64,000 nucleotides of DNA from Natronococcus sp. AD-5 (GTDB lineage Archaea; Halobacteriota; Halobacteria; Halobacteriales; Natrialbaceae). Each line of letters starts with the position of its first letter. The stretch's first letter is position 1. Under the pieces are notes generated by a model that was not told where the DNA came from, made no database searches, and was given only the letters and a program-made list of their open reading frames with translations. The position numbers and the translations under genes were made by a program. Shown piece after piece: positions 18,943 through 57,658 of this stretch. Where the stretch lies: NCBI RefSeq assembly GCF_030734285.1, contig NZ_CP132295.1, positions 930,001 to 994,000 of the forward strand, in the 5' to 3' direction.

Positions 18943-19000
18943 GGCGCTTTCGAACAGGCGAAAGCGCCTCACCCCTCTCAGGGGGACGACCAACACTACG
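18943..19000 (-). promoter_or_regulatory. Repeated leader, copy 1, with second hairpin
   Basis: Read on the minus strand: a GTGTTGGTCGT box, then CCCCCTGAGAGGGGTGAGG (about 18967-18991), then a perfect 10-bp stem GGCGCTTTCG/CGAAAGCGCC (18943-18952 with 18959-18968). The start codon of the ArdC-like gene follows 16 nt later. It is a diverged member of the leader family. Confidence 0.75.
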
Positions 19001-19035
19001 CTCATCGCACACCAGACTTCGAGTGAAAAATCGGC

Positions 19036-20049
19036 TCACGGCGGCGGTGGCATGTAGACGCTGTGCTCATCGACGATCTCCTCGAGTCGATTCTGCGTCC
19101 GATGTTCGAAATAACAGTCGTACGAGCAGTAGCCATAGATCTCTCCAGTATCATACTCGGCCACGAACGGGCCACGGTCGGTTGTCCAGACGTTCGCTCC
19201 ACACGCTTCACACGCCGCACTTGAGAGGTCGCTCAGCGTTGGACCCTCGTACTCGAGATCGACGTCCTCGTCATGGAGCTGTGTCTCCGGCCAAATGTCC
19301 TGGGCTTGCCAGAAGGCTTTGATCCGGCCCAAGCTGTGACGTACTAACTTTCGGATGGTGACGTGATCGGCGTCCCGCCCGCTGTCGTCCCAACCGTCGG
19401 CTGACCAGAACTCGCCGAACTGGGCCCCACGATGCAAGCCGTTCCAATCGAGCCCCACGATGTCAGCCGGTGGATCCCCGGAAAGCGTTGGCCGGGTGAG
19501 CGCCTCGATCGCGTTCACCTGCTTGCGTGGACTGGCACCGAGGATGTGGACTCGTCGACCACGCCAGTCTGCCGGATCCGAGAACTCGTGTGCGAGCTGG
19601 TCGGAGTACCCACGCGGGTAGCCGAGCACGAGCTCCTCGGGGATAGCGTCGATCGCCTCGCGGCACTTCGGCACGATCACAAGCTCCGACTCAGGATAGC
19701 TCGCCTGGAGGTCGCGAGCAGCGCGAACGTACCCACGTGCGTCTTCGACGGAGTAGGCATCACCGAGGACGCCAACGCGGGGCTCGTACTCCCTGAAGCG
19801 GTCGATGTACCGCTCGAGGTCGGGATTGCGAAAGTCGTTGTCGAGCATCCCGACTCCTAGCTCGAGCGTCTCGTACTGACCCTGCTGGTAGGTACAATCT
19901 TCGCGAAACCCGGTCACGTAGCCGAGGGAGAATGCGTCGATCGCGAATGGGACGCGGTGGAGAAAGGCGACGTAATCTGCTTGGCGAGCGGCTCGAATCT
20001 CGGCGGCACTGTCGGCACTGATCGCTGTCGAGTGTGCTGAGTATGACAT
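19036..20049 (-). CDS. Conserved haloarchaeal plasmid protein (possibly DUF6610)
   Basis: 337 residues starting MSYSAHSTAISADSAAEIRA. The body has a Rossmann-like or TIM-type pattern with VGMLDNDFRNPDLERYIDRF, VIVPKCREAIDAIPEELVLG and HILGASPRKQVNAIEAL. The C terminus has a zinc-knuckle region (CEACGANVW, then YGYCSYDCYFEH). I recall related proteins annotated as DUF6610 but cannot confirm that. The SPRKQ and PKC motifs hint at a tRNA-guanine-transglycosylase-like or nucleotide-binding fold; that is speculation. It has its own composite leader (copy 2). Confidence 0.75.
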   Translation of the reverse strand: MSYSAHSTAISADSAAEIRAARQADYVAFLHRVPFAIDAFSLGYVTGFREDCTYQQGQYETLELGVGMLDNDFRNPDLERYIDRFREYEPRVGVLGDAYSVEDARGYVRAARDLQASYPESELVIVPKCREAIDAIPEELVLGYPRGYSDQLAHEFSDPADWRGRRVHILGASPRKQVNAIEALTRPTLSGDPPADIVGLDWNGLHRGAQFGEFWSADGWDDSGRDADHVTIRKLVRHSLGRIKAFWQAQDIWPETQLHDEDVDLEYEGPTLSDLSSAACEACGANVWTTDRGPFVAEYDTGEIYGYCSYDCYFEHRTQNRLEEIVDEHSVYMPPPP

Positions 20050-20086
20050 GGACCAACCTCTGGAACCTGCGTTAGGCGCTCTTCCC

Positions 20087-20129
20087 GTTACCCCACAAAT
20101 CGGGAGAGACCCCGCAGTCGTGGGGTAAC
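20087..20129 (-). promoter_or_regulatory. Hairpin with GTTACCCCAC stem in the leader of the DUF6610-like gene
   Basis: Perfect 10-bp inverted repeat GTTACCCCAC (20087-20096) and GTGGGGTAAC (20120-20129) with a 23-nt loop that can pair further. It lies between leader copy 2 and the start codon at 20049. The same 10-bp stem recurs at 28143-28184. Confidence 0.8.
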
Positions 20130-20162
20130 TACGACTGGGATGGTGACGCCTGAAACGCGAGT

Positions 20163-20200
20163 CTCCTCACTCCTGAAGGGAGGTGGAACAACAGAACTGC
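20163..20200 (-). promoter_or_regulatory. Repeated leader, copy 2
   Basis: Minus strand: TTCTGTTGTTCCACCTCCC, then TTCAGGAGTGAGGAGA. The TGTTGTTCCACC box matches the family; the palindrome is partly decayed. It is followed by the GTTACCCCAC hairpin and then the gene at 19036-20049. Confidence 0.7.
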
Positions 20201-20215
20201 ATGCGAGGGGTCGGA

Positions 20216-20566
20216 TCAGTGGGAGACCCAGCCGAAGAAGAGCCAGACGTCGCCGCGTTTTCCTTTCAGCCTGTGTTGTTCGCGATAGCGCTTGGCTTCC
20301 TTTGTCCCCGAGCAGTTGATTGCTCCGGCGGGACCCCACTTACTTTGGATCCGCTCATCTCCATCCTCGAGTAGCTGGTGCGCGTATCGACGTTTCTGCT
20401 TTCCGTGATGCTCTTGCTCGGGGATGACTTCGAACGAGGACTTTTCGGCGATTGTCCCTGTGTAGCCGCCGTGGCCGTGCATCTGCTTCGCATCCGCAAC
20501 GGCGTTGCTGAACGCTTCTTGGGCAGTCTCACCGAACACGAACGTCTCGAACGTCACGGCACCCAT
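20216..20566 (-). CDS. Small basic protein of plasmid block, unknown function
   Basis: 116 residues from MGAVTFETFVFGETAQEAFS. A mixed alpha/beta start, including a glycine-rich HGHGGYTGTIAEK, is followed by a basic C-terminal half (KQKRRYAHQLL, KGKRGDVWLFFGWVSH). The longer upstream frame is rejected because it crosses leader copy 3. The start has a strong SD-like GGAGGAG and shares GATTCTAATG with the ArdC-like gene. Function unknown; the basic C terminus would suit nucleic-acid binding. Confidence 0.7.
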   Translation of the reverse strand: MGAVTFETFVFGETAQEAFSNAVADAKQMHGHGGYTGTIAEKSSFEVIPEQEHHGKQKRRYAHQLLEDGDERIQSKWGPAGAINCSGTKEAKRYREQHRLKGKRGDVWLFFGWVSH

Positions 20567-20657
20567 TAGAATCTCTCCTCCTCGAGTGCTGCGAGGTCGG
20601 TTCGGTGGCAATTCGTCTCTCGGGTGTCGGTTTCGTAAAGCATCAATCTCACCGAAA

Positions 20658-20708
20658 GCGCTCTCTTCCGAGCGCCTCACGCCTCTCGGGGCGCTGAACG
20701 ACACTCCT
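20658..20708 (-). promoter_or_regulatory. Repeated leader, copy 3, with short second hairpin
   Basis: Minus strand: GTGTCGTTCAGCGCC, then CCGAGAGGCGTGAGGCGC, followed by a GCGCTC/GAGCGC stem. The ATG at 20566 is about 90 nt further on, so this is a long-leader variant like copy 1. Confidence 0.65.
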
Positions 20709-20729
20709 GAGCGATATGATTGGGAACTC

Positions 20730-20972
20730 TTACTCTCCCCTACTTGTGGGGCGGTACAGACATTGCTCGCACTCGAGAAACTGCTCTCCCTCTTCAGTGA
20801 ATCGTCCAACCAACACTGCTGCCTCACAGCGGGGACACGGATCACCATGGGTGTATCCGCCTTTGACTGGCGGATCGGGAGTCGCTGCGGCTAACGCGAG
20901 TATGCGTGTTCTTGGGTCTGGATATGTGACCTTTCGCTTGCCGTTGTGGGCGCTCTCGGAGGGGTCAGTCAT
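20730..20972 (-). CDS. Zinc-ribbon protein, 80 residues
   Basis: It starts MTDPSESAHNGKRKVTYPDP and overlaps the stop of the upstream gene by 8 nt (AATGACTGA), so the two are translationally coupled. Two CxxC knuckles form a zinc ribbon: CPRCEAAVLVGRF and CEQCLYRP. Same minus-strand operon as the 107-residue protein before it. Confidence 0.75.
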   Translation of the reverse strand: MTDPSESAHNGKRKVTYPDPRTRILALAAATPDPPVKGGYTHGDPCPRCEAAVLVGRFTEEGEQFLECEQCLYRPTSRGE

Positions 20973-21288
20973 TACTCTCACCGGGCGAATCGAAGAGGAA
21001 CTGTGCGCTAGCGTCCTCACCCGTTAGCGTCTGCTGGTCGTCGGCTGTATCCGCGAACAGCGATGCCTGGTCAGTGTCGTCGACCTCCGAGTGGCGCACT
21101 TCCACGCGGTCGTCGACGCCGAACTCGCTGGCTGCGGGCCGATCAAGACGCGTTTCGACCTCGCGATGACTCACGTCGGCACCGAAATCCTCGAGTGAGG
21201 TTGCAACGCTTTCTTCGGTCGGTTTGAGTCCACCATCGTCGGTGAACGCTGTCTGCTGTTGGATCGTAATCTCGGGCCGGTCTGTCAT
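20965..21288 (-). CDS. Acidic hypothetical protein heading a two-gene operon
   Basis: 107 residues from MTDRPEITIQQQTAFTDDGG, very acidic, with few hydrophobic residues. It has a SREVETRLDRPAASEFGVDD-like middle (actual start SHREVETRL) and may be partly disordered. Leader copy 4 ends 8 nt before the ATG, which fixes the start. No family is recognised. Confidence 0.7.
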   Translation of the reverse strand: MTDRPEITIQQQTAFTDDGGLKPTEESVATSLEDFGADVSHREVETRLDRPAASEFGVDDRVEVRHSEVDDTDQASLFADTADDQQTLTGEDASAQFLFDSPGESND

Positions 21289-21289
21289 C

Positions 21290-21330
21290 TGAAAACCTCC
21301 TCCCCTCTGGGAGGGTGCAAACAACATTCA
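21290..21330 (-). promoter_or_regulatory. Repeated leader, copy 4
   Basis: Minus strand: GAATGTTGTTTGCACCC, then TCCCAGAGGGGAGGAGG, then TTTTCAG and ATG. The TGTTGTT box, C/G palindrome and GGAGG in fixed order sit immediately before the start codon at 21288. Confidence 0.85.
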
Positions 21331-21363
21331 CAGAGCTCGCGGGCGTCGCGATCGGTGGACCAG

Positions 21364-21573
21364 TCACGACTCCTCGCGGAGTTCTTCAGCTCGTCGGGCT
21401 AATTGTTTGAGGATCGGAAGGCGTTGCTGGTGCTGATTTTCGTAGGCGACACATGCCTGAAGTGTCTCCATATCGTTGATTGTCGCGATTCCCGCATCAA
21501 TGAGCCGGGTATTCGGGGATTCGAGGCGCTGCTGGGGCGTCAGTGGCTCATCAGTCTGGTCGGTATCTGACAT
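21364..21573 (-). CDS. Small helical protein, 69 residues
   Basis: MSDTDQTDEPLTPQQRLESP begins an acidic tail, followed by two amphipathic helices (TLQACVAYENQHQQRLPILK, then QLARRAEELREES). It looks like a small helical scaffold or a HEAT-like capping unit; no family is recognised. Leader copy 5 precedes it. Confidence 0.65.
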   Translation of the reverse strand: MSDTDQTDEPLTPQQRLESPNTRLIDAGIATINDMETLQACVAYENQHQQRLPILKQLARRAEELREES

Positions 21574-21577
21574 TGTG

Positions 21578-21614
21578 GGATCCTCTCACTCCTCGAGGAG
21601 AGAAACAACACCAC
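21578..21614 (-). promoter_or_regulatory. Repeated leader, copy 5
   Basis: Minus strand: CTCGTGGTGTTGTTTCTC, then TCCTCGAGGAGTGAGAGG, then ATCCCACA and ATG at 21573. The palindrome centre is CTCGAG. Confidence 0.85.
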
Positions 21615-21757
21615 GAGACGGTGCCGCTGATCTGACAGTCATCTTGGAGCAGCGAGAGAGCCTCGCCGTCCAAGTTCCCCGCTCACTGGTGGTTTGTGTT
21701 TGCTCTTGGACTGTCAGGATCCGAGCCGTGTCGGGGTGACTGACACCTGGTGCACTC

Positions 21758-22706
21758 TTAGATCGGTGTGTCGGGAATCTCTGGAACTGGAACTTTATCG
21801 AATCCACCAAACGTGTGGCGCGTCATCTCATCACAAGACCGACACTCCAGATTGCAACGGGTTCGCCCCTCGCGAGGGGAGTGCTCGGAGCGATCCGATG
21901 GGGATACGTGTTCGAGGGCGATGGCGGGAACGATCCAGGTACGTGTTGGCTCATCACGTCGTGGGTATTCCGCAGTATCCCATGTAGGACTGGTCCGCTC
22001 GAGCGTGTCGCCGGCAATCAGCTGGCCGACCTCCTCGATGTCAGTGATCGACTCACCCTTGGCGTCGAATAGCACTGGCTCGAGCGTCGGTCGGTTTTCC
22101 TCGGTGTTGTCGGTGCTCTCCTCAGCAGCTATAGTGTAGTCGTGGCCGGCGTTCTGGCGGATGATATCGAGCTGGCGCTGTCCTTCAGTCGTCTCGACGG
22201 CGGCCGCAGCAGGCAGCTGACCCCATTCACGAGTGAAGCGCGTCACAAATTCGCCCTCGAGCTCGGCGATGATTTCGCACTCGTCGATGCCGTCAATCGA
22301 CGTGGTGAAGGGATCGCCAGTCAGTCCTGTGAAGACGGCTTTGGCTTTGCAGATGGCGTTGTGCTTGGTTTTCGCGTCGACGAGGACGTGAATCAGCCCA
22401 GTGAGCTCGCGCTCGGTGTCAGGCTCGACCGCCAGATCACCGTAGTCGAGGCTGTTCGTGAGACAGAAGTCGCACTTTGTTCGATCGTGAGCGATCTCTG
22501 TGCCACACTCGCCTGATTCTCAGCGATGGAGCCGTCCTCGTAGGATGCTGATCCAGGACCGTCTGGATACCCCACGTGATCGTTTCGAGCGAATCGTCAG
22601 GGCGTTCGTAGCTGCCGTCGTCGACGGCTCTCGAGTCGGTCGCATCAGGTGTGATTCTTCCTTCGTCTTCAGGAGCGAACTCCCAACGGACGTCGTCGTA
22701 GTTCAT
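21758..22706 (-). pseudogene. Plasmid zinc-ribbon protein, frameshifted
   Basis: The start MNYDDVRWEFAPEDEGRITP runs in one frame to TWGIQTVLD, then the coding pattern moves frame (GYPDGPGSASYEDGSIAENQ) and again to ESGECGTEIAHDRTKCDFCL, which continues intact through LIHVLVDAKTKHNAICKAKA to the stop at 21758. The CG..CDFC pairs form a zinc site. At least two frame changes between 22500 and 22580 are needed, so it is probably dead. Near the C terminus a second Cys cluster (CNLECRSC) is visible. No leader copy is seen upstream. Confidence 0.65.
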
Positions 22707-23007
22707 AGTGTCGTGTGACTCCCCGGTGTGTCGTCAGTGTCCGCTCTTATCCCTGCCCTAGTTAATCTCCGGGTAGTGGGTGGAAGTAAAACTAGATACT
22801 GGATTGAATGGCGGCTCTGTTACAATACACCACAGATGATGAGCAGGCACCCTGTAATAAGTACAGGTGAAGCAGGTAGCGGAGTAGCAGTTGATTCCAC
22901 AAACAGCTGTCATAACTGTGTGTTGAGTACAGGGATTCGATACAGCACAAGGACTCAATTTATTTCATCGTATATGGACTGTACCAGTCTGTTAGTACGC
23001 ATGCATA
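22707..23007. other. Intergenic stretch without recognisable gene
   Basis: About 300 bp of AT-rich DNA. No coding pattern was seen and no leader copy. Confidence 0.5.
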
Positions 23008-23352
23008 TTAATCACTGAGTGGTTTTTGAAATGCTGGAGCTGGATCAGTGGGCTGGTCAGGGTCGCACACCCGGATAACACCGTCACCGCGAACAAAGAC
23101 GTTCCAACCAGCAATGGAGAGTCGAAGGAAAATTGGTGGTGTTGACGTGTCGCCACTGTCTGTGAACAGCTGATCTATTGATTCTGGATCAATCGTTTCA
23201 TATAGTGAGTCCAGTTCTGTTGGAGTGATACCTTCAACAGCTGCCACTGCTTCAACGATTGCCAGAGACGATGGCCGTCCATGCTCTTCCCCGAATCGTG
23301 TCTCTCCCAAAGGTGTACATTCACAACAAGTAGATCGGTTCTCATTTACCAT
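23008..23352 (-). CDS. Stand-alone HalOD1 output-domain protein (1)
   Basis: 114 residues. SSLAIVEAVAAVEGITPTEL followed by LDSLYETIDPESIDQLF and a C-terminal beta segment (WNVFVRGDGVIRVCD) fits the HalOD1 output domain found at the ends of haloarchaeal sensor and response-regulator proteins. Here it stands alone, with a short Cys/Glu-rich N terminus (STCCECTPLGE). Its role as a single domain is unknown. A second copy lies at 26426-26680. Confidence 0.75.
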   Translation of the reverse strand: MVNENRSTCCECTPLGETRFGEEHGRPSSLAIVEAVAAVEGITPTELDSLYETIDPESIDQLFTDSGDTSTPPIFLRLSIAGWNVFVRGDGVIRVCDPDQPTDPAPAFQKPLSD

Positions 23353-23449
23353 GGATCAATTAAGAGATACAGAACCTTGTATCCTTCAATGGTAGGTGTT
23401 TGGCAAGGCACACGACAACTATTCGTTTTAACTACTATGTGGTCTGTAC

Positions 23450-23788
23450 CAGCTGATTCTGCCTCCGTCTGCTTGGACAGTGTATGTGCCGCATATACGC
23501 CTTGTCATCACAATCCTCCCAAGTCACCGTGTCGGTGTCGAACGGGACGTCTTCAAGCCGGTTGATCCGGCGCAGAGCACGGCGTTATCGGTCTTGCACG
23601 GACACTTTGTGTAGCCTGCCTTGTACACGGCGTTGATGCGTGCAGCGTACAACTAGCGGATGCGATGCCCACTCGGTCACTTGCATTTCCGCCCTGGCTT
23701 CGCCCCCACAGGCTGGGCACTCAATCGCCAGAACTGGATGGGTGGGCTGAGCAACGCTACATTCGTCACATGTTACGGTGGCTGTCAC
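23450..23788 (-). pseudogene. Relic of a phage/plasmid zinc-binding protein
   Basis: The start MTATVTCDECSVAQPTHPVL continues to ECPACGG, then the frame breaks. In other frames one reads RINAVYKAGYTKCPCKTDN-like sequence (from about 23640 leftward) and further degenerate codons to about 23450. The pattern CPxCGAxxGxxCxxPSGHxxxxxHAxR known from small phage zinc proteins is recognisable but damaged. Only 67 residues (23585-23788) remain open. Confidence 0.55.
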
Positions 23789-23859
23789 CGGGTCAATGGT
23801 TAGTCCCAGGTCTCAGCTCTCGAGACCGCCGAACAACACATCGGTCGGTACTCCTGAAG

Positions 23860-24447: not shown

Positions 24448-24554
24448 AGTGATGAGGTTTTGCGTGAGGCGAATTCAATACTTGGTTCTCTCCGCAACGA
24501 TGTGGGTCAACACCAACATCGTTATGTGGATGGGGAGAGTAGATTCGAGCAACA

Positions 24555-24965: not shown

Positions 24966-25480
24966 TATGTCAAAACTCTAGATGGCGATTCTCAGATGTA
25001 CCGCTCACCATTGGATCTCACGAATTCTCACTTCTCTCGTCGGCTTCGGCTTCAAGGCGGCAGAGAAGCGATCAGTAGTCGGGAAGCCTAAAGTTGAGCG
25101 TCGTATGGCTGTTCTTGGGAATCGGTTCGTCGCACATCGGCAAGGGTCGCAGGTTGTGTTGTACGTCGGAACCAGTCGGGCGATACCATGGTCGCGAAGG
25201 CCCTCGAGGATCTCTTCTTCGGTTTTCCTATTACCTATCGTGACTACTACCGTTATCGGAGGATTCGACCCGGATAGTGAGCTGACAGATCGGCCACTTC
25301 ATCACGAGTGGGGATGCCGACCGGATTGTGAGAAACGCGGGCTCGTGCGACCAGGGCACCCCCGAGCACCGTACTCGAGGAACCGGCGTCATGGTGTGGT
25401 GAGGCGACTCGTTTGCGGGTTCTAAAAACGGTATCTGCGTGTGATCTTCCTCTCTGGGGGGACTCGCTAGACACGAATCG
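24966..25480 (-). pseudogene. Degenerate coding remains behind leader copy 6
   Basis: No single frame stays open with sense. Short fragments in different minus-strand frames look coding, for example VVVTIGNRKTEEEILEGLRD and HGIARLVPTYNTTCDPCRCA with a CxxC. These sit downstream of leader copy 6, so a leader-driven gene probably decayed here. The original family cannot be named. Confidence 0.35.
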
Positions 25481-25486
25481 TCGCGT

Positions 25487-25523
25487 TGCCCCTCTACCCC
25501 ACTCTGGGGAGAATCAACACCAC
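25487..25523 (-). promoter_or_regulatory. Repeated leader, copy 6
   Basis: Minus strand: GTTCGGTGGTGTTGATTCT, then CCCCAGAGTGGGGTAGAGG. Box, C4/G4 palindrome and AGAGG are in the family order, but no intact gene follows. Confidence 0.8.
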
Positions 25524-25534
25524 CGAACAGGAGG

Positions 25535-26087: not shown

Positions 26088-26243
26088 TCATGATGGGGAT
26101 TGTCCCTCCTCGTCGCTGACACCCGCGCTGTGATCGTCATGAGTCGGTATCTGTTCCTCGTTGTCCCCATCTTTGGCCCGGGTGTATCGAGAGATGGGGA
26201 TGTCTTCGTCAAACGTGCGTTCGTACACATCCAAGAGTGGCAT
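26088..26243 (-). CDS. Micro-protein of 51 residues, first gene of a leader-driven operon
   Basis: The frame reads MPLLDVYERTFDEDIPISRY, then TRAKDGDNEEQIPTHDDHSA and GVSDEEGQSPS. It is acidic and probably disordered after residue 20. It is supported by leader copy 7 and a perfect hairpin directly upstream, and by co-directional genes downstream. No family is recognised. Confidence 0.55.
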   Translation of the reverse strand: MPLLDVYERTFDEDIPISRYTRAKDGDNEEQIPTHDDHSAGVSDEEGQSPS

Positions 26244-26260
26244 AGTAATCACGTTCTGGA

Positions 26261-26320
26261 GTGTGCATATCGCCTATGCACACACCCTCCATCCCTCTCG
26301 AGGGTGCAACAACGCCACCG
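26261..26320 (-). promoter_or_regulatory. Repeated leader, copy 7, with second hairpin
   Basis: Minus strand: CAGCCGGTGGCGTTGTTGC, then ACCCTCGAGAGGGATGGAGG, followed by a perfect 9-bp stem GTGTGCATA/TATGCACAC (26261-26269 with 26275-26283, 5-nt loop). The ATG of the 51-residue gene is 18 nt beyond the stem. The SD-like GGAGG lies 5' of the second hairpin here. Confidence 0.88.
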
Positions 26321-27015: not shown

Positions 27016-27335
27016 CGCGACTCACGCTCCGGGCAGCCAGAGGCGTGCGGCAGTTTGTCTCGCCCACCGAGTTCGACCAACAGCTCACGCTCGCAGTACC
27101 GACACCGGACGTACTTCTTCCCGCCCTGTTCTGGTGGTTCGACGCGACGCGTGTACGCTGGTGTCTCGGGATCGGGACCAGCGCTGTCGGCGACTACAGT
27201 CCCGCCGTCGGTCATGGTCAGACCTGTCCCAGCAACAACTCTGGCTTCTGCACGCAATCGCAACCTCCGGCCCGCGTCAGTTTCGTAGTACTCAGCTCGC
27301 TGTGCGATATATTCTATCGCTCTGAGTCGTCTCAT
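27012..27335 (-). CDS. Zinc-finger protein heading a four-gene operon
   Basis: 107 residues from MRRLRAIEYIAQRAEYYETD. The basic, helical N-terminal half may bind nucleic acid; the C-terminal half has CRYCERELLVELGG and a later HASGC, a CxxC..HxxxC zinc site. Leader copy 8 puts GGAGG 8 nt before this ATG; a GTG five codons earlier lies inside the leader and is less likely. The operon continues with the coiled-coil, DUF7563-like and HalOD1 genes. Confidence 0.7.
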   Translation of the reverse strand: MRRLRAIEYIAQRAEYYETDAGRRLRLRAEARVVAGTGLTMTDGGTVVADSAGPDPETPAYTRRVEPPEQGGKKYVRCRYCERELLVELGGRDKLPHASGCPERESR

Positions 27336-27336
27336 C

Positions 27337-27378
27337 TGGTTTCCCTCCACCCCTCTCGAGGGTGGAACAACACCACCA
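27337..27378 (-). promoter_or_regulatory. Repeated leader, copy 8 (near-consensus)
   Basis: Minus strand: CTTGGTGGTGTTGTTCCACC, then CTCGAGAGGGGTGGAGG, GAAACCAG and ATG. All parts are present: GGTGGTGTTGTT box, CCACCC/GGGTGG pairing with a CTCGAG centre, and GGAGG. Confidence 0.92.
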
Positions 27379-29036: not shown

Positions 29037-29677
29037 TCTGCACCCCCGTCGTCGCTGAGAGTGCGAGCAAGCGATGCGGCTAACTGCTCGATATCCTCGT
29101 GATGAGCGTGCTTGACGTTCAGGAGAGTAAGGTGCGCTCCAGGTTCCCACAGTTCTGCCCGGGAAAGCTCGTCAGCGAACTCCTCGAGGACGTCGTCAGT
29201 CGACCGGCGGCCATCGGTGAGACCGTTAATCCGAGCTGCAATCCGATGAGGAACCACATCTCGGCAAGCGGGGTCTCGTCCTGTGTAGTCGGCCATCGTC
29301 TCGATGAGTCCCGCAAATGCCTCGACACGTCCGTCGACCGTGACGTCCCACTCTTCGAGGTCGTCCTCGTTGACGGCGTACGTCACAGCGTCGGGCTCCT
29401 GTTTCTCAAGGAGAGACTCGAGAGCCGCTTGCTTCCAGCTGCGGAGATCGCGGAAGTTCCAGAATGTGGTGAACTCTTCGAGCGTCTCGATGGAGTGCTC
29501 AATTGAGATTTCAGCGCGAACACGCTCGGTCGTTTCGTCACCGTGGTCAGTGATCCGGGTAACCGGCCCGCTGGCAGTCGCGAGGAACCGTCGTGGAAGC
29601 GGCGTCGTCTCACCGATAGACTGCGCTTCATCGGGTGTCTCCGCTGGCTGTGCTGTCGTCTCGTCTGCTCGTGACAT
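29033..29677 (-). CDS. Conserved plasmid-type hypothetical protein, 214 residues
   Basis: It starts MSRADETTAQPAETPDEAQS directly after leader copy 9. A disordered N terminus precedes a beta segment (RFLATASGPVTRITDHGDE) and a helical body with LDDTWNFRDLRSW-like aromatic patches (actual TTFWNFRDLRSWKQAALESL). No catalytic motif is visible. Head of a three-gene coupled operon (29677, 29036, 28569). Confidence 0.7.
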   Translation of the reverse strand: MSRADETTAQPAETPDEAQSIGETTPLPRRFLATASGPVTRITDHGDETTERVRAEISIEHSIETLEEFTTFWNFRDLRSWKQAALESLLEKQEPDAVTYAVNEDDLEEWDVTVDGRVEAFAGLIETMADYTGRDPACRDVVPHRIAARINGLTDGRRSTDDVLEEFADELSRAELWEPGAHLTLLNVKHAHHEDIEQLAASLARTLSDDGGAE

Positions 29678-29679
29678 CT

Positions 29680-29719
29680 GTGAAACCCTCCACCCCTCTC
29701 GAGGGGGTAACAACACCAC
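29680..29719 (-). promoter_or_regulatory. Repeated leader, copy 9 (near-consensus)
   Basis: Minus strand: GCATGTGGTGTTGTTACCC, then CCTCGAGAGGGGTGGAGGG, TTTCACAG and ATG at 29677. The CCCCTC/GAGGGG palindrome is perfect. Confidence 0.92.
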
Positions 29720-32885: not shown

Positions 32886-32930
32886 GTTTTTGATCCCTCT
32901 ACTCCTCGTAGGGGGCAAACAACGCCACCG
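32886..32930 (-). promoter_or_regulatory. Repeated leader, copy 10
   Basis: Minus strand: CAGCCGGTGGCGTTGTTTG, then CCCCCTACGAGGAGTAGAGGG, shown here in family order as box, imperfect palindrome and AGAGGG, then ATCAAAAACG and ATG at 32884. Confidence 0.85.
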
Positions 32931-34041: not shown

Positions 34042-34182
34042 TCAAACCTCCACTTCATCAAGCAGCTCGATTGCTTCGTCGACCTTCTCTCGATCGTCGT
34101 CGCTCAGCTGATCCTGATCGATGCTTCTGAGGTTGCTCCACGCGTCCCACAGCAGGTATCCGGGGATATGTTCTTCGTCCAT
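34042..34182 (-). CDS. Micro-protein of 46 residues behind leader copy 11
   Basis: The full protein reads MDEEHIPGYLLWDAWSNLRS then IDQDQLSDDDREKVDEAIEL and LDEVEV. It is acidic with a single amphipathic helix at the C terminus. The leader fixes the start. It heads an operon with the DUF6884-like gene, whose GTG is 5 nt after this stop. Confidence 0.65.
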   Translation of the reverse strand: MDEEHIPGYLLWDAWSNLRSIDQDQLSDDDREKVDEAIELLDEVEV

Positions 34183-34183
34183 C

Positions 34184-34230
34184 TGTGATCTCCTCCACCC
34201 CTCTCAGAAGGGGGAACAACCCCACCGGCT
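34184..34230 (-). promoter_or_regulatory. Repeated leader, copy 11
   Basis: Minus strand: CAGCCGGTGGGGTTGTTCCC, then CCTTCTGAGAGGGGTGGAGG, AGATCACAG and ATG at 34182. It shares the upstream extension CAGCCGGTGG with copies 7 and 10. Confidence 0.9.
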
Positions 34231-49796: not shown

Positions 49797-50812
49797 TTAT
49801 AAATTGAACATCCGGGAAAGGTCGTCCACGACGTCGAAGATTTTCTTGCCTTCCAAGAGAATGGCGCGGCCGCGCCATTCCCGTAATTCCTCCGTCACAA
49901 CCGGGTTTGCGCTCTTTTTCAACCGGCTCACGAAGTAGCCGTCGTTCTCGTCGATCAACGCGAACCGCCGGTACTTGAAGTAGGCGAGGTCGAAGATCGC
50001 TAGCCGTCCTTTCAGCCACGGTCCTGTGTTGAACGACGTGCTGTCGTGCGTTTTCTCGTCTGTGACGCTGAAGTGTTCGACCGTCTGGTCGGTGACGTTG
50101 TGGAGCAGGTGGAGCTTCGCTCCAGCCTGCTCCTCGTGACGTGCTTTGTACTCTTCAGAGAGCAACTCGTGCAACCGCAGGACGGTTCCATCAGCGATCA
50201 TCAAGTCTCGAAAGCGGTCGAACTCATCAGAGACGGTGTGAGGGACAGCGACCTCGTCGAACCCGTATTCGACGAGGTCGCGGAGGTATTCTGCGAGCGT
50301 CGGAGTCAACCGCTGATAGAAGCCGCCCGGAGAGAGTGACTCGTCAGCAGTGGAGTTGTAGGTACGTCTGAAGGCCGCAAGCGTTCGGCTTCGCCGCAGG
50401 CGAAAGCCGAACGCGAACGACCAGACGAGTGGTGGGATCTGAATCTTCCCCTCGTGCTCGACCACGCCGACGGCATCGGCGTGGTCTTCGAGCGCTTCAA
50501 AGGGAAGGAGGTTAGTGAGACGGCGTTCAATGTGACGTGAGGAGGGTTCGGTGTGCACAGCTGTCACCTCCACATTCCTTCCGCGCTCTTGTGAGGAAGA
50601 TTGTTGGCAGTGATAGCCCGTCCTGTACTGGGTCGGGTGAAGCGTCATCTTAGTCGGTGATGACTGCTGTCCCTGCGTACCATATCGGTTCAGCGTGGCA
50701 GCAAAACCGCCAGACGGCTCTCCACCAACAATGTACTCCCGAAGAGCGTTCCTTCCGAAAAGTAGCTCCGATAAGCCGCCGCTGTCATGCGGTTCTTGGC
50801 TTAGCTAAAGAC
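49797..50812 (-). mobile_element. ISH8-type (IS4 family) insertion sequence, 3' part deleted
   Basis: The remaining frame (49797-50648) carries the N-terminal half of an ISH8 transposase: RTLAAFRRTYNSTADESLSP, then LAEYLRDLVEYGFDEVAVPH, DLMIADGTVLRLHELLSEEY and ALIDENDGYFVSRLKKSANP. It ends at DVVDDLSRMFNL, so the second half with the YREK-type catalytic Glu is missing. The outer 5' end may be near 50812 (GTCTTTAGCTAAGC). It separates the DUF326 gene from the halocyanin gene and cannot move by itself. Confidence 0.82.
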
Positions 50813-52237: not shown

Positions 52238-52243
52238 TTACCG

Positions 52244-52591
52244 ATGTCGTCCTCAAACCAGCTCGATACTACTACGCTGATCCTCCTTCTCCTCGGAGTA
52301 CTTATCGTACTACCGTTGCTCACGATGGGGATGGGGTTCGGAGGAATGATGGGATACGGTGGAATGATGGGCTGGAACGGGGCTACCAGTGGCTGGTGGC
52401 CGCTCGTCGGAATGTTCGTTCCGCTCGTCTTTCTTCTCGTTCTGCTCGGCGGTGGATATCTTATCCTTCAGCGTGCGACGGCAAATCATTCGGATCCTGC
52501 AATGGAGGAACTACGTAAAGCGTATGCTCGTGGCGATCTCACCGATGAAGAGTTCCAAACCCGCCGAGATAGACTCGAACGGTCAGAATGA
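52244..52591 (+). CDS. SHOCT-domain membrane protein (2)
   Basis: 115 residues. Helix one is followed by a Gly/Met-rich loop (MGMGFGGMMGYGGMMGWNGA), helix two, and the SHOCT tail AMEELRKAYARGDLTDEEFQ. Paralogue of 36021-36377 and co-transcribed with DUF302. The Met-rich loop may contact copper (inference). Confidence 0.88.
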   Translation: MSSSNQLDTTTLILLLLGVLIVLPLLTMGMGFGGMMGYGGMMGWNGATSGWWPLVGMFVPLVFLLVLLGGGYLILQRATANHSDPAMEELRKAYARGDLTDEEFQTRRDRLERSE

Positions 52592-52616
52592 GGGCACAAC
52601 GGTGATCTTGCTATAA

Positions 52617-53651
52617 TTAGCTGTTGTTCGACTTACAAGGATCTTGACTGTGATCCTCTTTTCCGGAAGGCCACTTCCGTTCGTCGGATTCGACGATACC
52701 GAGCAGTATTCGCCGACGTTTACTCAACGTATCGAAGGAGGAGGCGAACTCTTCGTCAGAAACGGTCGGAATACCACCCTCGCGGAGGGCATTGAGGTCG
52801 GGTAACGAAGGTGTTCGGTCCGCAGGATCAACAAATGTTTGATGAAGCGTTTCGAGGTAGTTCTCAATACCTTTGCGAGCGTTCCGGAGAACAATCTCGT
52901 TCGGTTGATGTGGTTCCGAGATGCCGAATCTGATGAGCGATAACGCCTCGTCTAGGGCCGCGATTTCGACGGTCGGGGATCGCTTGTCGTGAGCGCTGTG
53001 AAAGTAATGAAGAACGGGGTAGGCATTGTGGTTCTCTGTCAGGATCGTAAGCTGTGTTACGAAACCGTTCAGCGGCAGGTCGAGCCCTCGAAACTCCTCG
53101 CCGTCCCAGGCCGTTCGAACGATTTCCTCGCTATGCGTTCCGAATCCACTAACGTTGTTAGCGAACGCCCGTTTCTGGGTAACCGCATCCAGTACGGAAA
53201 GCGTATACGTGACGCTGAGCGTCACGAAGAGCAACCCGCTTCCTGTTGCGAGTACCGTAATAACCTGCCAGATCCCCTCCCGGGGAGCGAAATCACCGAT
53301 ACCTAACGTAAAGATGGTGTATCCGGTGAAATAGATCCGATCGAACCACGACACGGATCCACGATCGAGCGTGTCAATGAGGGCGCTCTCGGCTCCGGCG
53401 AAGATCAGCGTCCATCCGCTCCAGAGCAGTACGATCCATACCGTGAGGCTCAGTACGAAGATCAACAGTCCCGAGAGACTCAGCAATCGTTCGTTCTGCG
53501 CACCGATCCGACGGAGTGATCGCCACGTCCACGCCATCAGCCGAGACGTAAGTGGACCAGCACCTCCCTCGACCCAGAGTGTCGTCCAGAGGAGATCGAC
53601 GATGGTTCCAAGGAGGAGGACAACGCCGATGGTGAGATAGACCAGGTTCAT
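52617..53651 (-). CDS. Ion channel family protein
   Basis: 344 residues. Three N-terminal helices with a pore loop TIFTLGIGDF (filter TLGIGD, 115-120) are followed by a helix (LATGSGLLFVTLSVTYTLSV) and a 200-residue cytoplasmic domain of unknown fold. It is a two-pore-helix-type K+ or mixed cation channel. It converges with the SHOCT gene. Confidence 0.82.
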   Translation of the reverse strand: MNLVYLTIGVVLLLGTIVDLLWTTLWVEGGAGPLTSRLMAWTWRSLRRIGAQNERLLSLSGLLIFVLSLTVWIVLLWSGWTLIFAGAESALIDTLDRGSVSWFDRIYFTGYTIFTLGIGDFAPREGIWQVITVLATGSGLLFVTLSVTYTLSVLDAVTQKRAFANNVSGFGTHSEEIVRTAWDGEEFRGLDLPLNGFVTQLTILTENHNAYPVLHYFHSAHDKRSPTVEIAALDEALSLIRFGISEPHQPNEIVLRNARKGIENYLETLHQTFVDPADRTPSLPDLNALREGGIPTVSDEEFASSFDTLSKRRRILLGIVESDERKWPSGKEDHSQDPCKSNNS

Positions 53652-53672
53652 AGCCGTTCGGTAGTGTTCTGG

Positions 53673-54050
53673 TCAGGGGTTATCCGTGTTCGATCCACTG
53701 GGAGCTCCGCCGAAGGGTAATAGCGACGCGATATAGAAATTGTACCCGGCCAGTGAAGAGACCAAGACTCCGACGATCACGGCGTTCCAGCGTTGCACGC
53801 CGTCTATCCCGAAGAGAAACGGCGCTATTACAAGCCACGACCCAAGTAACGTATTCGCCCCTGCGGCGATTCGGGTAACTTCCCGCTCGTCTCGTTCAAC
53901 ATACCGAGTAGATATGGATAGAATCCCGATTAGAGCACCTGTGATTGCGATATTCCATTGATACATAGCTGGTACGTGGAAAACGAACTGCGTAGCAAGT
54001 AACCAGAAACCGAGGAGCAGAGTGAGGGCCGAAAACGTCCTTGTCAGCAT
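53673..54050 (-). CDS. SPW-repeat-like four-helix membrane protein
   Basis: 125 residues, four helices in two repeats, each with an internal W-N motif: LATQFVFHVPAMYQWNIAIT and VIAPFLFGIDGVQRWNAVIV. This duplicated pattern is typical of SPW-repeat proteins, whose role is unknown. It is followed by the channel gene after 22 nt, so both may be one unit. Confidence 0.8.
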   Translation of the reverse strand: MLTRTFSALTLLLGFWLLATQFVFHVPAMYQWNIAITGALIGILSISTRYVERDEREVTRIAAGANTLLGSWLVIAPFLFGIDGVQRWNAVIVGVLVSSLAGYNFYIASLLPFGGAPSGSNTDNP

Positions 54051-54107
54051 TGTAGGGCAAAGAATCGGTTAGGTTCTCGTTCTCCGCTTCCCGCCGCAAT
54101 CAGCGGA

Positions 54108-54455
54108 TCAGGCTGACGCCATGTTTCGACAACTCTCGGCGCACTCGCGCAGCACGTCGGCACACACCTGACAGTGTTCGTGATCGAACTGCTCGCATTC
54201 GTCGGCGCACTCCTCACAGGCGTCTGCGCACGTCTCCGCGAGGTCAGCGTGGTACCCGGAATTCCGGGCCATAAAGCGAGCGTGTAGCGCCGTGATATCG
54301 GCGACGTCCCGACAGAGACGGATACAGCGCGCCATCTCCTCGCCCATTCCGATACACTCGTCGGCACACCACTCGCAGGCCTGTGCCGCTTCGAAGCAAT
54401 TGTCTGTACACTCCGCCATTTCGTCGTCCATGTGGTCAATCTGGGTTAGCGCCAT
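54108..54455 (-). CDS. DUF326 four-helix copper-binding protein, intact copy
   Basis: 115 residues with about 15 Cys: CTDNCFEAAQACEWCADECI, MARCIRLCRDVAD, CADACEECADECEQ and HCQVCADVLRECAESC. The CxxC repeats on helices are the Cu(I)-storage pattern of Csp/DUF326 proteins. Cytosolic, no signal. It is the intact paralogue of the gene at 49361-49731. Confidence 0.9.
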   Translation of the reverse strand: MALTQIDHMDDEMAECTDNCFEAAQACEWCADECIGMGEEMARCIRLCRDVADITALHARFMARNSGYHADLAETCADACEECADECEQFDHEHCQVCADVLRECAESCRNMASA

Positions 54456-54718
54456 CGCATATCATCAGTCGGCGCGACCCGACTTTGTTATCGTCAACCC
54501 AAGTCGAGAGAATAATTAGTGAGACGGAGGTAACACCGTTCAGTCGAACAGGGATAATCAATGAGATGGGATGCAACATAGTGTTTTATGGCTGAAACAG
54601 CGCTGGAATCCCACTATCTCTTCGTTCAAGCAGCGTAGATCGCAGTAATCTGTGATTCTGGCTTTGCTTTCGGCTGCAGGCAGCGGAGTTGAAGACGCGC
54701 CTCCTCGTACGCTTCGAT

Positions 54719-55021
54719 ATGATTGATGCGTCGCTGCAAACGGCGAGCATCCTGTTCGCCATCATCGGCGGGACGGCAGCCGGCGTACTGTCCCTCCTTC
54801 TCTGGGGTATCCTCCGCGAAACGCCGTTCGGAACGATAGTCGCGCTGCTCACACTGACGCTGTCTGGAGTGATCCTCTATCACGTCTTCTTGATTATCGC
54901 CGGCGGAGAATCGATCTTTCTCGATACGCTCCGGAGTGCGATGCACACCGTCGTCGCAATTTTTCTGTTGCTAGTGATCGCCACGCACGAGCAAATCCAG
55001 CAGAGTGTTTCAGGGAGTTGA
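54719..55021 (+). CDS. Three-helix membrane protein, partner of the membrane winged-helix protein
   Basis: About 100 residues from MIDASLQTASILFAIIGGTA, with three hydrophobic helices. It ends EQIQQSVSGS. The GTG of the next gene begins 6 nt after its stop, so the two form an operon. No family is recognised; haloarchaeal pairs of a small membrane protein with a membrane-bound HTH protein exist, but their function is unknown to me. Confidence 0.7.
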   Translation: MIDASLQTASILFAIIGGTAAGVLSLLLWGILRETPFGTIVALLTLTLSGVILYHVFLIIAGGESIFLDTLRSAMHTVVAIFLLLVIATHEQIQQSVSGS

Positions 55022-55027
55022 TAATCA

Positions 55028-55618
55028 GTGGTTGAATTGCCACTGTTTGCCGTATACAATCTCACAGTAGGCGCTGTCACGGGAATCGGGTTGTTGTATT
55101 TCCTCTTTTTCAGGCCGACTGTCGTTGACTACCACCGCTATTTGCTGTTAACGATCTCGGGAATACTGCTGTTTCTCGTCGGTGGTCCGATAGTGGAATT
55201 GCTGTTCCCGCCGGTAGTACATTGGGTGCACGGTGTCGCGTCGGTGCTCGTCGTGATCGGTCTGTACAGTCCGGTGAAAAGCGATTTGCGTCAGGAAGCC
55301 TGGGCCGGTCTTCTGCTCCAAGATCCCGCACAAGTTCGCCAGGTAGACGAGTGGATGCTTCCCGTTGATGATGCGATCCTCGGTCTCTTCCACTCGAAGG
55401 ATCTCGTTCTGACACCGGCCATCATCGCGTACAACATTGACTACAGTCGAGAGGAAGTGAACCGTCGATTAGTCGAATTGAAGTCTCGTGGATTTGTTAC
55501 GAAAGCTGAACGAGGGAAGTATCGTATCACGGGCCTCGGAAAACAGTACATAGAAGGAACGGTTCCTTGCGAAGGGTTTGGTTGTCTACGCTCTCTCTGG
55601 AGCCACCGTACCAATTAA
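55028..55618 (+). CDS. Membrane-anchored winged-helix (PhiH1-like) protein
   Basis: 196 residues from a GTG. Three to four helices fill residues 5-80. The cytoplasmic part has a winged helix: LVLTPAIIAYNIDYSREEVN, then RRLVELKSRGFVTKAERGKY and RITGLGKQYIEG, as in PhiH1 repressor-like regulators. A transcription factor tethered to the membrane could sense membrane or envelope state. Position next to the copper island suggests, but does not show, a stress role. Confidence 0.78.
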   Translation: MVELPLFAVYNLTVGAVTGIGLLYFLFFRPTVVDYHRYLLLTISGILLFLVGGPIVELLFPPVVHWVHGVASVLVVIGLYSPVKSDLRQEAWAGLLLQDPAQVRQVDEWMLPVDDAILGLFHSKDLVLTPAIIAYNIDYSREEVNRRLVELKSRGFVTKAERGKYRITGLGKQYIEGTVPCEGFGCLRSLWSHRTN

Positions 55619-55680
55619 CATACTCACCCAATCTTGAATATGGCCTCATTAGGTCGCACTTCTCTGTTACGGAAAACTGA

Positions 55681-55865
55681 TCACTCGCTGCACTGGGGTG
55701 CGGATATTTGACCAAGATAAAATGAAACCAATGACACGGCGATAAGGATCACCACATTAACACAGTATCTGTTGAGAGGGTACTAGTAAGGCCGAGAACG
55801 CCAAGTGCAAATAGAGTTACTCCAATCAGCATGGTCGCAAATTGGTGAAAACGTAGAGTAGGCAT
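55681..55865 (-). pseudogene. Small two-helix membrane protein, frameshifted
   Basis: It begins MPTLRFHQFATMLIGVTLFA, LGVLGLTSTLSTDTV, then meets a stop. Another frame carries a second helix, VVILIAVSLVSFYLGQISAP, to a stop at 55681-55683. One small deletion joins two transmembrane helices into a 60-residue protein. Moderate support only. Confidence 0.45.
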
Positions 55866-55911
55866 TGACTCGACTTAGGTCGTGTTGTTAATTGTCAGGA
55901 AGATAGTCTCG

Positions 55912-56895
55912 TCACTGTCGAAGTTTCTCACATTCTGATCGTTGATCATAGTCGGTCCAAAACTTTCTCGCTGGCGTCCATCCGATCGTTTCCTATGTTT
56001 TCAGGAACGTTAGATTTGAGAAAATGGGTGATCGCGTCTTGCCGAACTGGATAGGGCTCAACGAGGAAGGACACGCATGTGAGCGCTCGATAGGTAGCGC
56101 GTCACACTCCTCAAGATCCCGATCGTGAGGACAGTTATCGCCGTATACACACGGACGCGTATACTGATAAACGATCGTTCGGCCAAGCGTTAGACTCAAG
56201 CGATCGATTTCGTCGCAAACAGTGGCTTGTGTTCGTACTGATCGCGGACTCCGGGGTGGTTGACCGAGAGCCAGCATCCAAGACCTCACAAACTGAAGCG
56301 TTCAGTGCGACAAGTCGTTTACTCTTTCGCCCATTCTTGAGTGAGGAGCTTTCCTCAGGTCAGTGAACAAGAGTGAGATACTGTCGTCAACGTTGTAGTC
56401 GTCAGTATCCAGTCCCGTGGCTGCTCCGATGCGAAGTCCAGTATGCCAGAGAACCTTCATCAGCGCATGCTCCAAGCGCGTATAACGATATTGATCGAGA
56501 AAGTTCAATATCTGATGGGCACGATCTGGATTCAGCAACTCGGATCGAGTATCAGCTTCAGTTGTCGTCGGAAGAATGATCTTTTCGTCGAGTCCTGGCT
56601 CTACCGCATCGATCATCGCACAGAAGCGGAGGAACATTCTCTGGGTTGCTAACTGCCCCTTCATGCTGGCTGTTGCGAGCCCATCTTCGTTTCTGCGCTT
56701 CACTCGGAATCGGTGGATGTCTCGCCCGGAGAACTCGTCGAGATTGTCGATTCCGTCTTGTCCGCACCACAGCACGAACTGCTTGAGACGATATCGGTGA
56801 GACTGGATCGTTGCGTCTGCGAGTTCGTGACGCCGTTCGTCGAGGTACATCTGCATCGCCTCCGCTGGTTCGAGTGGTTCGAGGTTGTCTGCCAT
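55912..56895 (-). pseudogene. Tyrosine recombinase (integrase) relic
   Basis: The N-terminal 175 residues are intact: core-binding domain (TIQSHRYRLKQFVLWCGQDG) and start of the catalytic domain with the first Arg (LWHTGLRIGAATGLDTDDYN). After DLRKAPHSRMGERVN the frame is lost. Further pieces lie downstream in shifting frames: DQYEHKPLFATKS, RPCVYGDNCPHDRDLEECDA, SPYPVRQDAITHFLKSNVPE, and YDQRSECEKLRQ with the catalytic Tyr. Stop near 55912. It once integrated a haloarchaeal plasmid or virus; now inactive. It marks an old element border. Confidence 0.82.
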
Positions 56896-56931
56896 GGTCT
56901 CTCATTAAAGGCAAAGACAAGAGATCTCTAA

Positions 56932-57286
56932 ACGCAACTCTTGGCGCTTCTCGCGCACACTAACAGCTGGATGAGACCCCGGAACATTTTGGACGTTCCC
57001 TGTCAGACTTTGTCCTGCTTTCCGACACGCACATAAGGAATTAAAATTCGTGATAACCGCAGGGCTTGGATATACTCAGGCGTACACAACAAAGTTAATT
57101 TGTCAGGCTTCATCCATAGCCTCTCTGTCTGTTTGGAGGGAGATCCGACGGCTCAGTCGGTGCGTATGGATGAATTATCAATAAATTATAAGAATTTATG
57201 CCGGGAATTGCTCCTCAATGCTCACCGACATCTCGAGTGGCTGTGAGATCGCCAGTCAACTGACCAATTCGTGTATCGACATCTTT
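56932..57286. other. Intergenic stretch without recognisable gene
   Basis: About 355 bp between the integrase relic and leader copy 12. AT-rich near 57170-57200. The minus strand near 57235-57285 holds a short decayed frame after leader copy 12 (MSIHELVS then stop). No attachment site can be identified by eye. Confidence 0.45.
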
Positions 57287-57330
57287 CAAACCCCTCTACC
57301 CCTCTGAGGGGGTCGAACAACACCACCGAA
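57284..57330 (-). promoter_or_regulatory. Repeated leader, copy 12, before a decayed gene
   Basis: Minus strand: CATTCGGTGGTGTTGTTCG, then ACCCCCTCAGAGGGGTAGAG, GGGTTTGAAAG and ATG. The frame stops after eight codons (MSIHELVS), so the downstream gene is gone while the leader is near-perfect. Confidence 0.9.
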
Positions 57331-57388
57331 TGGATGCGTTGTCGTGCCATTCTCGTCTGCCGAACTGCCGTGAGCCGTATTGCCAGGT

Positions 57389-57616
57389 TCACCCACAGTC
57401 CGAGCAGACGAGATCGACGTCCCGATTCATGGCTCTCTCGCAAGCCACAGTCAGGACCAGACTGTATCTCCCGCAGTTGTCACAACTCGTCCTAGAGCGG
57501 GCTGCAAGAGCCGGCAGTTCGCCGTGAGAATCGTGATCGGGTTTCTGGATTAGTGGATCGTCTCTGGTTTTGAACTCAACAACAATCACCTCCTGCTCGC
57601 TGTCTGGCACCGTCAA
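57389..57616 (-). CDS. Zinc-finger micro-protein, 75 residues
   Basis: Start TTG (TVPDSEQEVIVVEFKTRD) right after leader copy 13; a GTG two codons later is possible. The C-terminal half is a CxxC..CxxC ribbon: TSCDNCGRYSLVLTVACERA and VDLVCSDCG. It is an intact paralogue of the frameshifted gene at 32664-32884, and both carry the leader. Confidence 0.72.
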   Translation of the reverse strand: MTVPDSEQEVIVVEFKTRDDPLIQKPDHDSHGELPALAARSRTSCDNCGRYSLVLTVACERAMNRDVDLVCSDCG

Positions 57617-57658
57617 CTCTATTCCTCTACCCCTCTGAGGGGAACGAACAACGCCACG
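57617..57658 (-). promoter_or_regulatory. Repeated leader, copy 13
   Basis: Minus strand: GACCGTGGCGTTGTTCGTT, then CCCCTCAGAGGGGTAGAGGA, ATAGAG and the TTG start at 57616. The CCCCTC/GAGGGG palindrome is perfect. Confidence 0.9.

Follow-up and report, generated by a model that had tools for sequence, protein, structure and literature searches.

A 64,000-nucleotide (nt) stretch of Natronococcus sp. AD-5 (contig NZ_CP132295.1, positions 930,001-994,000; hereafter the window) carries thirteen copies of a leader that stands in front of unrelated plasmid genes, ArdC among them, and whose relatives recur on conjugative-type plasmids of haloarchaea. Orthologous leaders follow a common plan: a T-rich box, a 5' arm (arm 1), a loop with a G-rich core (element 2), and a middle arm (arm 3). 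Leaders of a two-hairpin type add a downstream arm (arm 4) that is complementary to arm 3, which is also complementary to arm 1; since arms 1 and 4 share arm 3 as their partner, hairpins 1 and 2 are mutually exclusive. Comparison gives this architecture and its conservation directly, whereas we infer transcription through the leader. With slightly less than even confidence, we favor the explanation that the leader acts as a regulon-wide RNA conformational switch at the ribosome-binding site (RBS) of genes on these plasmids, ArdC included.

The window belongs to a plasmid of 1,023,156 base pairs (bp) in a 5.17-Mb genome of two contigs. The initial annotation had pointed to thirteen near-identical leaders on the minus strand, and every one was found where it had been placed. 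A sequence-only model (R1), trained on 18 copies (the window's 13 and five others of the same genome) and run over the window with filters off, gave 39 matches at an expectation value (E) of at most 10, exactly these 13 at E<=2.3e-5 and the next at 0.15; membership in the training set flatters the E-values of the 13 and does not affect the absence of further copies. "Near-identical" was an overstatement, since the mean column identity of the 18 copies is 68%. The palindrome of CCCC and GGGG is clear by eye in nine copies but degenerate in copies 2, 3, 5, and 10. The start codon said to follow shortly after a Shine-Dalgarno (SD)-like motif does so in eight of the 13 (7-11 nt after GAGG in copies 4, 5, and 8-13), whereas a second hairpin intervenes in copies 1, 3, 6, and 7 and copy 2 has a long leader. 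The leader is indeed kept before dead genes: the gene of copy 12 has TGA at codon 9 where orthologues have CGA, and in that of copy 6 the ATG of an orthologue is replaced by ACG. Over the whole genome, with 150 of 1018 first-look candidates scored, R1 returned at least 35 matches at E<=1, all on the plasmid and grouped by orientation, and this megaplasmid apparently carries several leader arrays. The pattern GTTGTTN{2,8}CCYYNNNNRRGGRGTRGAGG matched nine times in the 5.17-Mb genome and its reversed form never.

The two types of leader differ in where translation could begin. Where arm 4 is missing, arm 3 usually contains GAGG, mostly 8-11 nt before the start codon. The 174 fully flanked copies form 34 groups by downstream sequence, and 107 of 165 unique copies (25 groups) have an ATG 4-14 nt after [AG]AGG; this abutting-start type was chosen by that very pattern, so only the concentration within the 4-14 nt range is informative, with 94 of the 107 at 8-11 nt and 58 at exactly 9 (an earlier count limited to 4-10 nt had 82 of 93 at 8-10). 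Some abutting-start genes begin with GTG or TTG. In some two-hairpin families, a separate SD-like motif (GAGGUGA or GGUGA, by eye) follows the second stem. The conserved part of the leader is about 35-100 nt long, and an ATG opening at least 60 codons lies at +30 to +85 in 117 of 175 copies, as against 598 of 3500 random same-strand positions (17%).

Comparison with a second set of leaders, here called ancestral, unmasked how freely the stems change. This set comprises 17 genes of plasmid L156 (out of 38 plus-strand genes, the leader judged by eye) and the ArdC gene of plasmid L157; upstream regions were collected by tblastn from fetched plasmids, and one gene, g29513, yielded no leader. The box reads GTTGTT in the window family and GTTTTTC, GTTTATT, GTCTATT, or GTTGTTC in ancestral families. 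Stems at the same place are wholly different (GAGCCUC:GAGGCUC, GCGCCGGC:GCCGGCGC, GGGGC:GCCCC, CCGGGC:GCCCGG, and GUGCCCC:GGGGCAC), and the ancestral loop retains a G-rich core of the form RAUGGGU or GARRGGGUG. Among 150 aligned copies of the window family, the best-conserved columns are the box G.GTTG.T and the core GAGGG, each at 90% or more. Orthologues connect the two forms (copy 4 with g28792 and copy 5 with g28517); the plan is shared and the stems differ. In all three abutting-start and two of 14 two-hairpin ancestral families, GAGG falls at least partly within the consensus arm 3 (p about 0.015, by hand), as expected if arm 3 is the ribosome site only when a start codon follows.

Both of the mutually exclusive pairings appear to be preserved by compensation. 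When the halves of hairpin 1 were swapped between gene families, own arms 1 and 3 scored above swapped ones in 30 of 44 families (means 5.06 and 4.49; Wilcoxon p=0.0011). This test anchored 281 of 562 leaders, the rest being duplicates or failing the anchor pattern, and 17 of the 44 families are single sequences; the signal comes mostly from the ancestral families g24347, g24876, g25814, g12826, g31445, g19552, and g12165. For arms 3 and 4, the own pairing exceeded that with swapped downstream segments in 17 of 18 two-hairpin families (not in cl18; p=1.1e-5) and that of dinucleotide shuffles also in 17 of 18 (not in DUF6166; p=1.1e-5), with means of 4.35 for own, 3.50 for swapped, and 3.75 for shuffled sequences. 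These were 14 ancestral and four Natrialbaceae families, from which leaders without a stem score of 3.5 or with less than 18 nt downstream were dropped. Alignment A3 of the window family (150 of 172 matches aligned, 138 distinct) has 61 two-sided changes in the outer pairing of arms 1 and 3, compared with 32.1 (standard deviation 6.1) in shuffles, none of 500 reaching that number, and a covariation score of 0.211 compared with 0.169. The initial annotation was to be given up if a search brought neither compensatory pairs nor enrichment before start codons; compensatory change is present across the wider family, and the enrichment is the one before open frames given above. In predicted folds, the middle arm mostly pairs upstream in TFB, g24347, g31445, cl2, and cl18 and mostly downstream in DUF6735, g26288, g25814, g24876, g12165, and others, which suggests that the balance between its two partners varies by family.

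A switch built on this plan would work as follows. The leader would be transcribed, mostly inside polycistronic RNA. In one state, arm 1 would pair with the core, and arm 3 would be free for the ribosome in the abutting-start type or paired with arm 4 in the two-hairpin type, with initiation downstream. In the other state, arm 1 would pair with arm 3, so that the RBS is closed or arm 4 is freed, and expression would fall. A putative plasmid factor would read box and core and set the state for all genes, the purpose probably being to limit or time the expression of transfer or establishment genes such as ArdC. That a single factor could serve all leader genes, as initially annotated, is plausible because the core is gene-independent and the copies are strand-uniform. 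Known RNA switches and attenuators that sequester the SD motif have an arm common to two exclusive pairings, one of which takes in the RBS. Here, by contrast, one leader type serves tens of unrelated plasmid genes, and these are archaeal.

The leader family occurs in 35 of 125 genomes of the family Natrialbaceae at E<=0.01 (48 candidates scored per genome), with up to 47 matches per genome, and in 89 of 391 sampled genomes of the class at E<=0.001 (15 candidates scored per genome), with one to three matches each outside Natrialbaceae. An exact-pattern scan of named genomes found copies in Natrinema, Natrialba, Natronococcus, and Saliphagus (14 stretches), and viral contigs gave no match to one exact leader pattern. 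Plasmids of this kind include pJ7-I of Natrinema sp. J7-2 and pHTUR03 of Haloterrigena turkmenica. In haloarchaea other than Natrialbaceae, a diverged form stands before many genes of conjugative-type plasmids that carry TFB, DUF6735, DUF6610, and ArdC, and at most of the short loci inspected a DUF6735 gene comes next. A 61-residue DUF6735 query was found on 66 of 72,556 plasmid records from many haloarchaeal genera, 46 of the 66 at 95-99% identity; this near-identity may reflect recent spread or strong constraint. Ten of these plasmids, of 96-272 kb, were inspected. PLSDB assigns a T-type mating-pair system to six of them and recognizes a relaxase in none, typing them as non-mobilizable. VirB4 is named in L156, and conjugal-transfer or type IV secretion proteins are annotated in L156, L157, L162, and L163; on the window's own genome, a Natronomonas VirB4 query found no tra gene, a weak empty answer. 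Genes for TFB, DUF6735, DUF6166, DUF6610, and ArdC recur on the inspected plasmids, in one direction where in view. Copies at E<1e-3 keep to one strand per stretch in the window and 40 further stretches, the sole exception being L108, with two on the plus and one on the minus strand.

Other features of these arrays were observed alongside. All ten inspected DUF6735 plasmids have annotated TFB genes, and a TATA-binding protein (TBP) gene lies within the array of a Natrinema zhouii plasmid (L069, 19244-19786). Opposite-strand cargo (restriction endonuclease, DUF3883, AAA ATPase, Fic, and others) interrupts the arrays of L155-L164, repeatedly just upstream of a leader, at what look like cargo hot spots. 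Integron attC sites, considered for the one-way arrays, the palindromes, and the GTT core, were set aside: by eye, the gene order of the arrays appears conserved from one genome to another, and a corresponding AAC end was not seen.

Several results weigh against a switch. The arm swap has no effect in several Natrialbaceae groups, and sliding arm 3 by one column leaves the outer pairing of the window family nearly equal (53 changes, score 0.209). Of the operator or RNA hairpin that the initial annotation had offered as alternatives, the hairpin gains from pairing kept through arm turnover, from a second exclusive partner, and from the placement of GAGG; within the window family alone, however, the inner CCCC:GGGG pairing is barely beyond shuffles (11 two-sided changes compared with 7.9, 57 of 500 shuffles; covariation 42 of 500; cells paired 4 of 500). 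The RNAalifold covariation term for this family is -0.18 over three pairs, and single hairpins fold little better than shuffles, with z below -2 only in copies 7 and 10 of the 13. Hairpin 1 has no G-U preference, with 123 G-T and 154 A-C cells (47 and 70 distinct; 15 and 21 by a strict count). A first scan of this hairpin (72 G-T, 106 A-C) over-extended the arms and was superseded, and the later counts agree on the lack of preference. For hairpin 2, G-U exceeds A-C in the clearest families, by 44:3 in TFB and 29:11 in cl2 (cells) and by 26:4 over 15 distinct arm pairs in DUF6735 (7:3 by distinct type), and hairpin 2 leans to RNA in these families as far as wobble pairs can tell. Over all picks, the cells number 139 and 77 but the distinct types 36 and 37; several picks look wrong by eye (g24876, g26288, g31445, cl10, and DUF6735, the last recounted). 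The difference between the two hairpins is likewise clear in cells (Fisher p=1.2e-5) but not by distinct type (p=0.23). The preference of hairpin 2 is thus not general and rests on few families and partly on descent. An RNAalifold count over all families (952 G-U, 196 A-C) was not used as evidence, since RNAalifold selects for G-U.

Upstream of the box, there is no promoter signal at a fixed distance and there are no purines resembling a B-recognition element (BRE), either in 119 diverse Natrialbaceae copies of 174 or in 65 ancestral contexts. The leader is present in 23 of 32 hand-listed genes after opposite-strand cargo, where the gap is only 117-350 nt, and the origin of the transcript therefore remains unexplained by a switch. 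An A/T-rich stretch 25-40 nt before the box is seen in some leaders beside such cargo (DUF6735 contexts), and none is visible in others. The same region bears on a rather unlikely alternative, in which the leader is a plasmid-specific core promoter and operator: the T-rich box would be a TATA-like element for a plasmid TFB (or TBP), the dyad would lie between the box and the transcript start, and hairpin 2 would be the first RNA structure. As in haloarchaeal BRE/TATA promoters, the box is T-rich, and in ancestral genes of the abutting-start type it lies some 34-39 nt ahead of the start codon. It is also the left edge of conservation in unrelated contexts, opposite-strand cargo included, with no other fixed-distance signal upstream. 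By eye, A/T-rich stretches lie around -25 to -35 in several leaderless genes of one plasmid, the TFB gene sits in the array and itself has the leader, and it is hairpin 2 more than hairpin 1 that shows G-U over A-C in cells. Such promoters, however, have a BRE, which these leaders lack, and here a dyad and loop are conserved independently of the gene. Nor does a promoter explain why arms 1 and 3 remain complementary while their sequences turn over. By the usual TATA spacing, transcription would start at or after arm 3, which would exclude GAGG from the RNA and give abutting-start genes a constant leader of some 8 nt; that some of these start with GTG or TTG is hard to square with a nearly leaderless RNA. 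Spacing itself cannot separate a promoter from an SD motif, since the distance from box to GAGG is as constant as that from GAGG to ATG.

In Haloferax volcanii, SD pairing is reported not to be used in 5'-untranslated regions, and SD motifs in front of distal operon genes have been proposed as aids to re-initiation (PMC3986360); these points count against a plain SD switch and would fit an intercistronic one. An intercistronic position would also suit a site for RNA processing or stability, a quite improbable reading in which box and core would mark where a polycistronic RNA is cleaved into parts or protected, and the SD-like arm would be incidental. Leaders often begin a few to some tens of nucleotides after the upstream stop codon, the arrays are strand-uniform, and second hairpins could protect new 5' ends, all of which would agree with such a site. 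Such a site predicts neither an arm 4 that is complementary to the shared arm 3 nor the placement of GAGG in arm 3 chiefly where a start codon comes next.

Conjugative plasmids of bacteria offer two comparisons. In Bacillus, the plasmids pLS20 and p576 have establishment gene regulatory sequences (EGeRS1 and EGeRS2), and on pLS20-type plasmids an establishment regulon came to light through a sequence common to the upstream regions of ardC and four other operons; the mechanism of EGeRS1 is reported as unknown (PMC8708921). There, within one region of a conjugative plasmid, ardC and several further operons are preceded by the same conserved sequence (PMC8708921); our leaders resemble this arrangement in being common to ArdC (copy 1, cluster 4) and over 20 further groups of genes. 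EGeRS end immediately upstream of the RBS and have inverted repeats, and EGeRS1 is described there as lacking a strong sigma-A promoter (PMC8708921). EGeRS1, however, measures 400-600 bp, has multiple inverted repeats, and occurs in five copies on pLS20 (PMC8708921), whereas the haloarchaeal leaders are about 35-100 nt long, number up to 47 per genome, and have mutually exclusive arms. The likeness is one of arrangement, and no sequence relation is claimed.

The second comparison is with Frpo promoters, which serve leading-region genes (PMC11541004). Frpo/ssi elements and our leaders share hairpins before anti-defense genes, one orientation, and proximity to transfer genes (PMC11541004). The leaders could be single-stranded-DNA promoters of a leading region, whose hairpins, folded in the entering strand, would initiate transcription of establishment genes ahead of second-strand synthesis, although we consider this improbable. 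Each array has one orientation (with one exception), and wherever conjugal transfer genes are visible (L156, L157, L162, L163) the array comes after them and runs the same way; arrays end in or near ArdC, and a replication factor A gene lies within one. The free stem sequence, a hairpin 1 without G-U preference, and the lack of a double-strand promoter signal would also suit DNA. Frpo, however, holds its -35 and -10 elements in long stems (PMC11541004), whereas the leader stems, with their free sequence, have 5-9 bp and are too short to hold promoter hexamers in a duplex (bacterial hexamers were not searched for). The inspected plasmids, moreover, are typed as non-mobilizable, no oriT or transferred strand has been established for them, and hairpin 2 leans towards RNA in some families.

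A broader proposal combines these comparisons with the switch and is possible, if unlikely: tens of small genes, ArdC among them, would form an establishment regulon, each unit would have its own three-arm nucleic-acid switch under one plasmid factor, as RNA or as entering single-stranded DNA, and the whole set would be expressed together on plasmid arrival. ArdC of plasmid R388 is reported to be needed in recipients, not in donors (PMC7213743). If this proposal holds, the leaders would be an archaeal counterpart of EGeRS and Frpo control, with the new design of one switch copied to every unit and stems drifting freely. If the RNA switch is true, a single archaeal leader design, able to pair in two mutually exclusive ways, serves tens of genes, and if the promoter or single-stranded-DNA alternative is true, the leaders form an unusual class of archaeal promoter. 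The comparisons define, from sequence, a candidate plasmid regulon across haloarchaea, in which most genes have no known function and are interleaved with defense-type cargo. It gives a handle on how archaeal conjugative-type plasmids control their genes upon arrival, and the leader is usable as a search tag for candidate archaeal anti-defense genes. A scan of the window with Rfam 15 gave no match at gathering scores, and no description of this leader was found in the literature searched, which left subscription papers largely outside. The coordinates of all copies, second hairpins, and adjoining genes are given in Table 1.

Table 1. Leader copies and associated features, in window coordinates. 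R1 scores are in bits; z scores refer to RNA folds of the interval named.
Feature	Position	Strand	Evidence
ArdC-like gene, 3' end of array	18003..18926	-	Pfam ArdcN E 7e-4 (under curated cut-off); PHROG anti-restriction protein E 2.4e-6
Copy 1, box and hairpin 1 of ArdC leader, two-hairpin type	18959..18999	-	R1 31.1, E 1e-8
Copy 1, second hairpin GGCGCUUUCG..CGAAAGCGCC	18943..18968	-	18940-18999, z=-3.45; pairing kept in orthologues
DUF6610 gene	19036..20049	-	Pfam E 8.7e-74
Further hairpin of DUF6610 leader, 10 bp, GUUACCCCAC..GUGGGGUAAC	20087..20129	-	Similar stems in other Natrialbaceae leaders
Copy 2, start of long DUF6610 leader	20155..20198	-	R1 20.5
Copy 3, two-hairpin type	20663..20709	-	R1 23.9 (23.8 on second scoring)
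Copy 3, second hairpin	20655..20678	-	20640-20709, z=-1.16
Copy 4, abutting-start type	21287..21327	-	R1 27.8; orthologous ancestral leader g28792
Copy 5, abutting-start type	21572..21616	-	R1 20.7; orthologous ancestral leader g28517
Copy 6, two-hairpin type, downstream ATG changed to ACG	25487..25525	-	R1 30.5; orthologues
Copy 6, second hairpin	25461..25479	-	25440-25525, z=-1.22
Copy 7, two-hairpin type	26280..26320	-	R1 32.2
Copy 7, second hairpin GUGUGCAUA..UAUGCACAC	26261..26283	-	26240-26320, z=-2.41
Copy 8, abutting-start type	27335..27378	-	R1 38.6
Copy 9, abutting-start type	29676..29719	-	R1 42.1
Copy 10, abutting-start type	32887..32930	-	R1 35.8
Copy 11, abutting-start type	34181..34227	-	R1 36.8
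Copy 12, abutting-start type, gene with nonsense codon 9	57284..57328	-	R1 43.8
Copy 13, abutting-start type, TTG start	57618..57659	-	R1 36.4; orthologues

On pHTUR03, the orthologue of copy 10 precedes a SWIM zinc finger gene, the annotated start of which follows after about 250 nt. Near copies 12 and 13, the window encodes a protein with a Phage_int_SAM integrase-type N-terminal domain (56302-56895), and a DDE transposase lies further from them (49797-50648). The megaplasmid has three ArdC genes of near full length, that of the window (match at window positions 18006-18932) and two others that are 82% identical to it (contig positions 50416-51330 and 593219-594133), each directly 3' of a leader copy; a fourth match is partial (contig positions 754590-754964). 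On L156, a protein with an NrS-1 polymerase HBD domain (10837-12090; Pfam E 2e-31) is encoded beside the conjugation genes.

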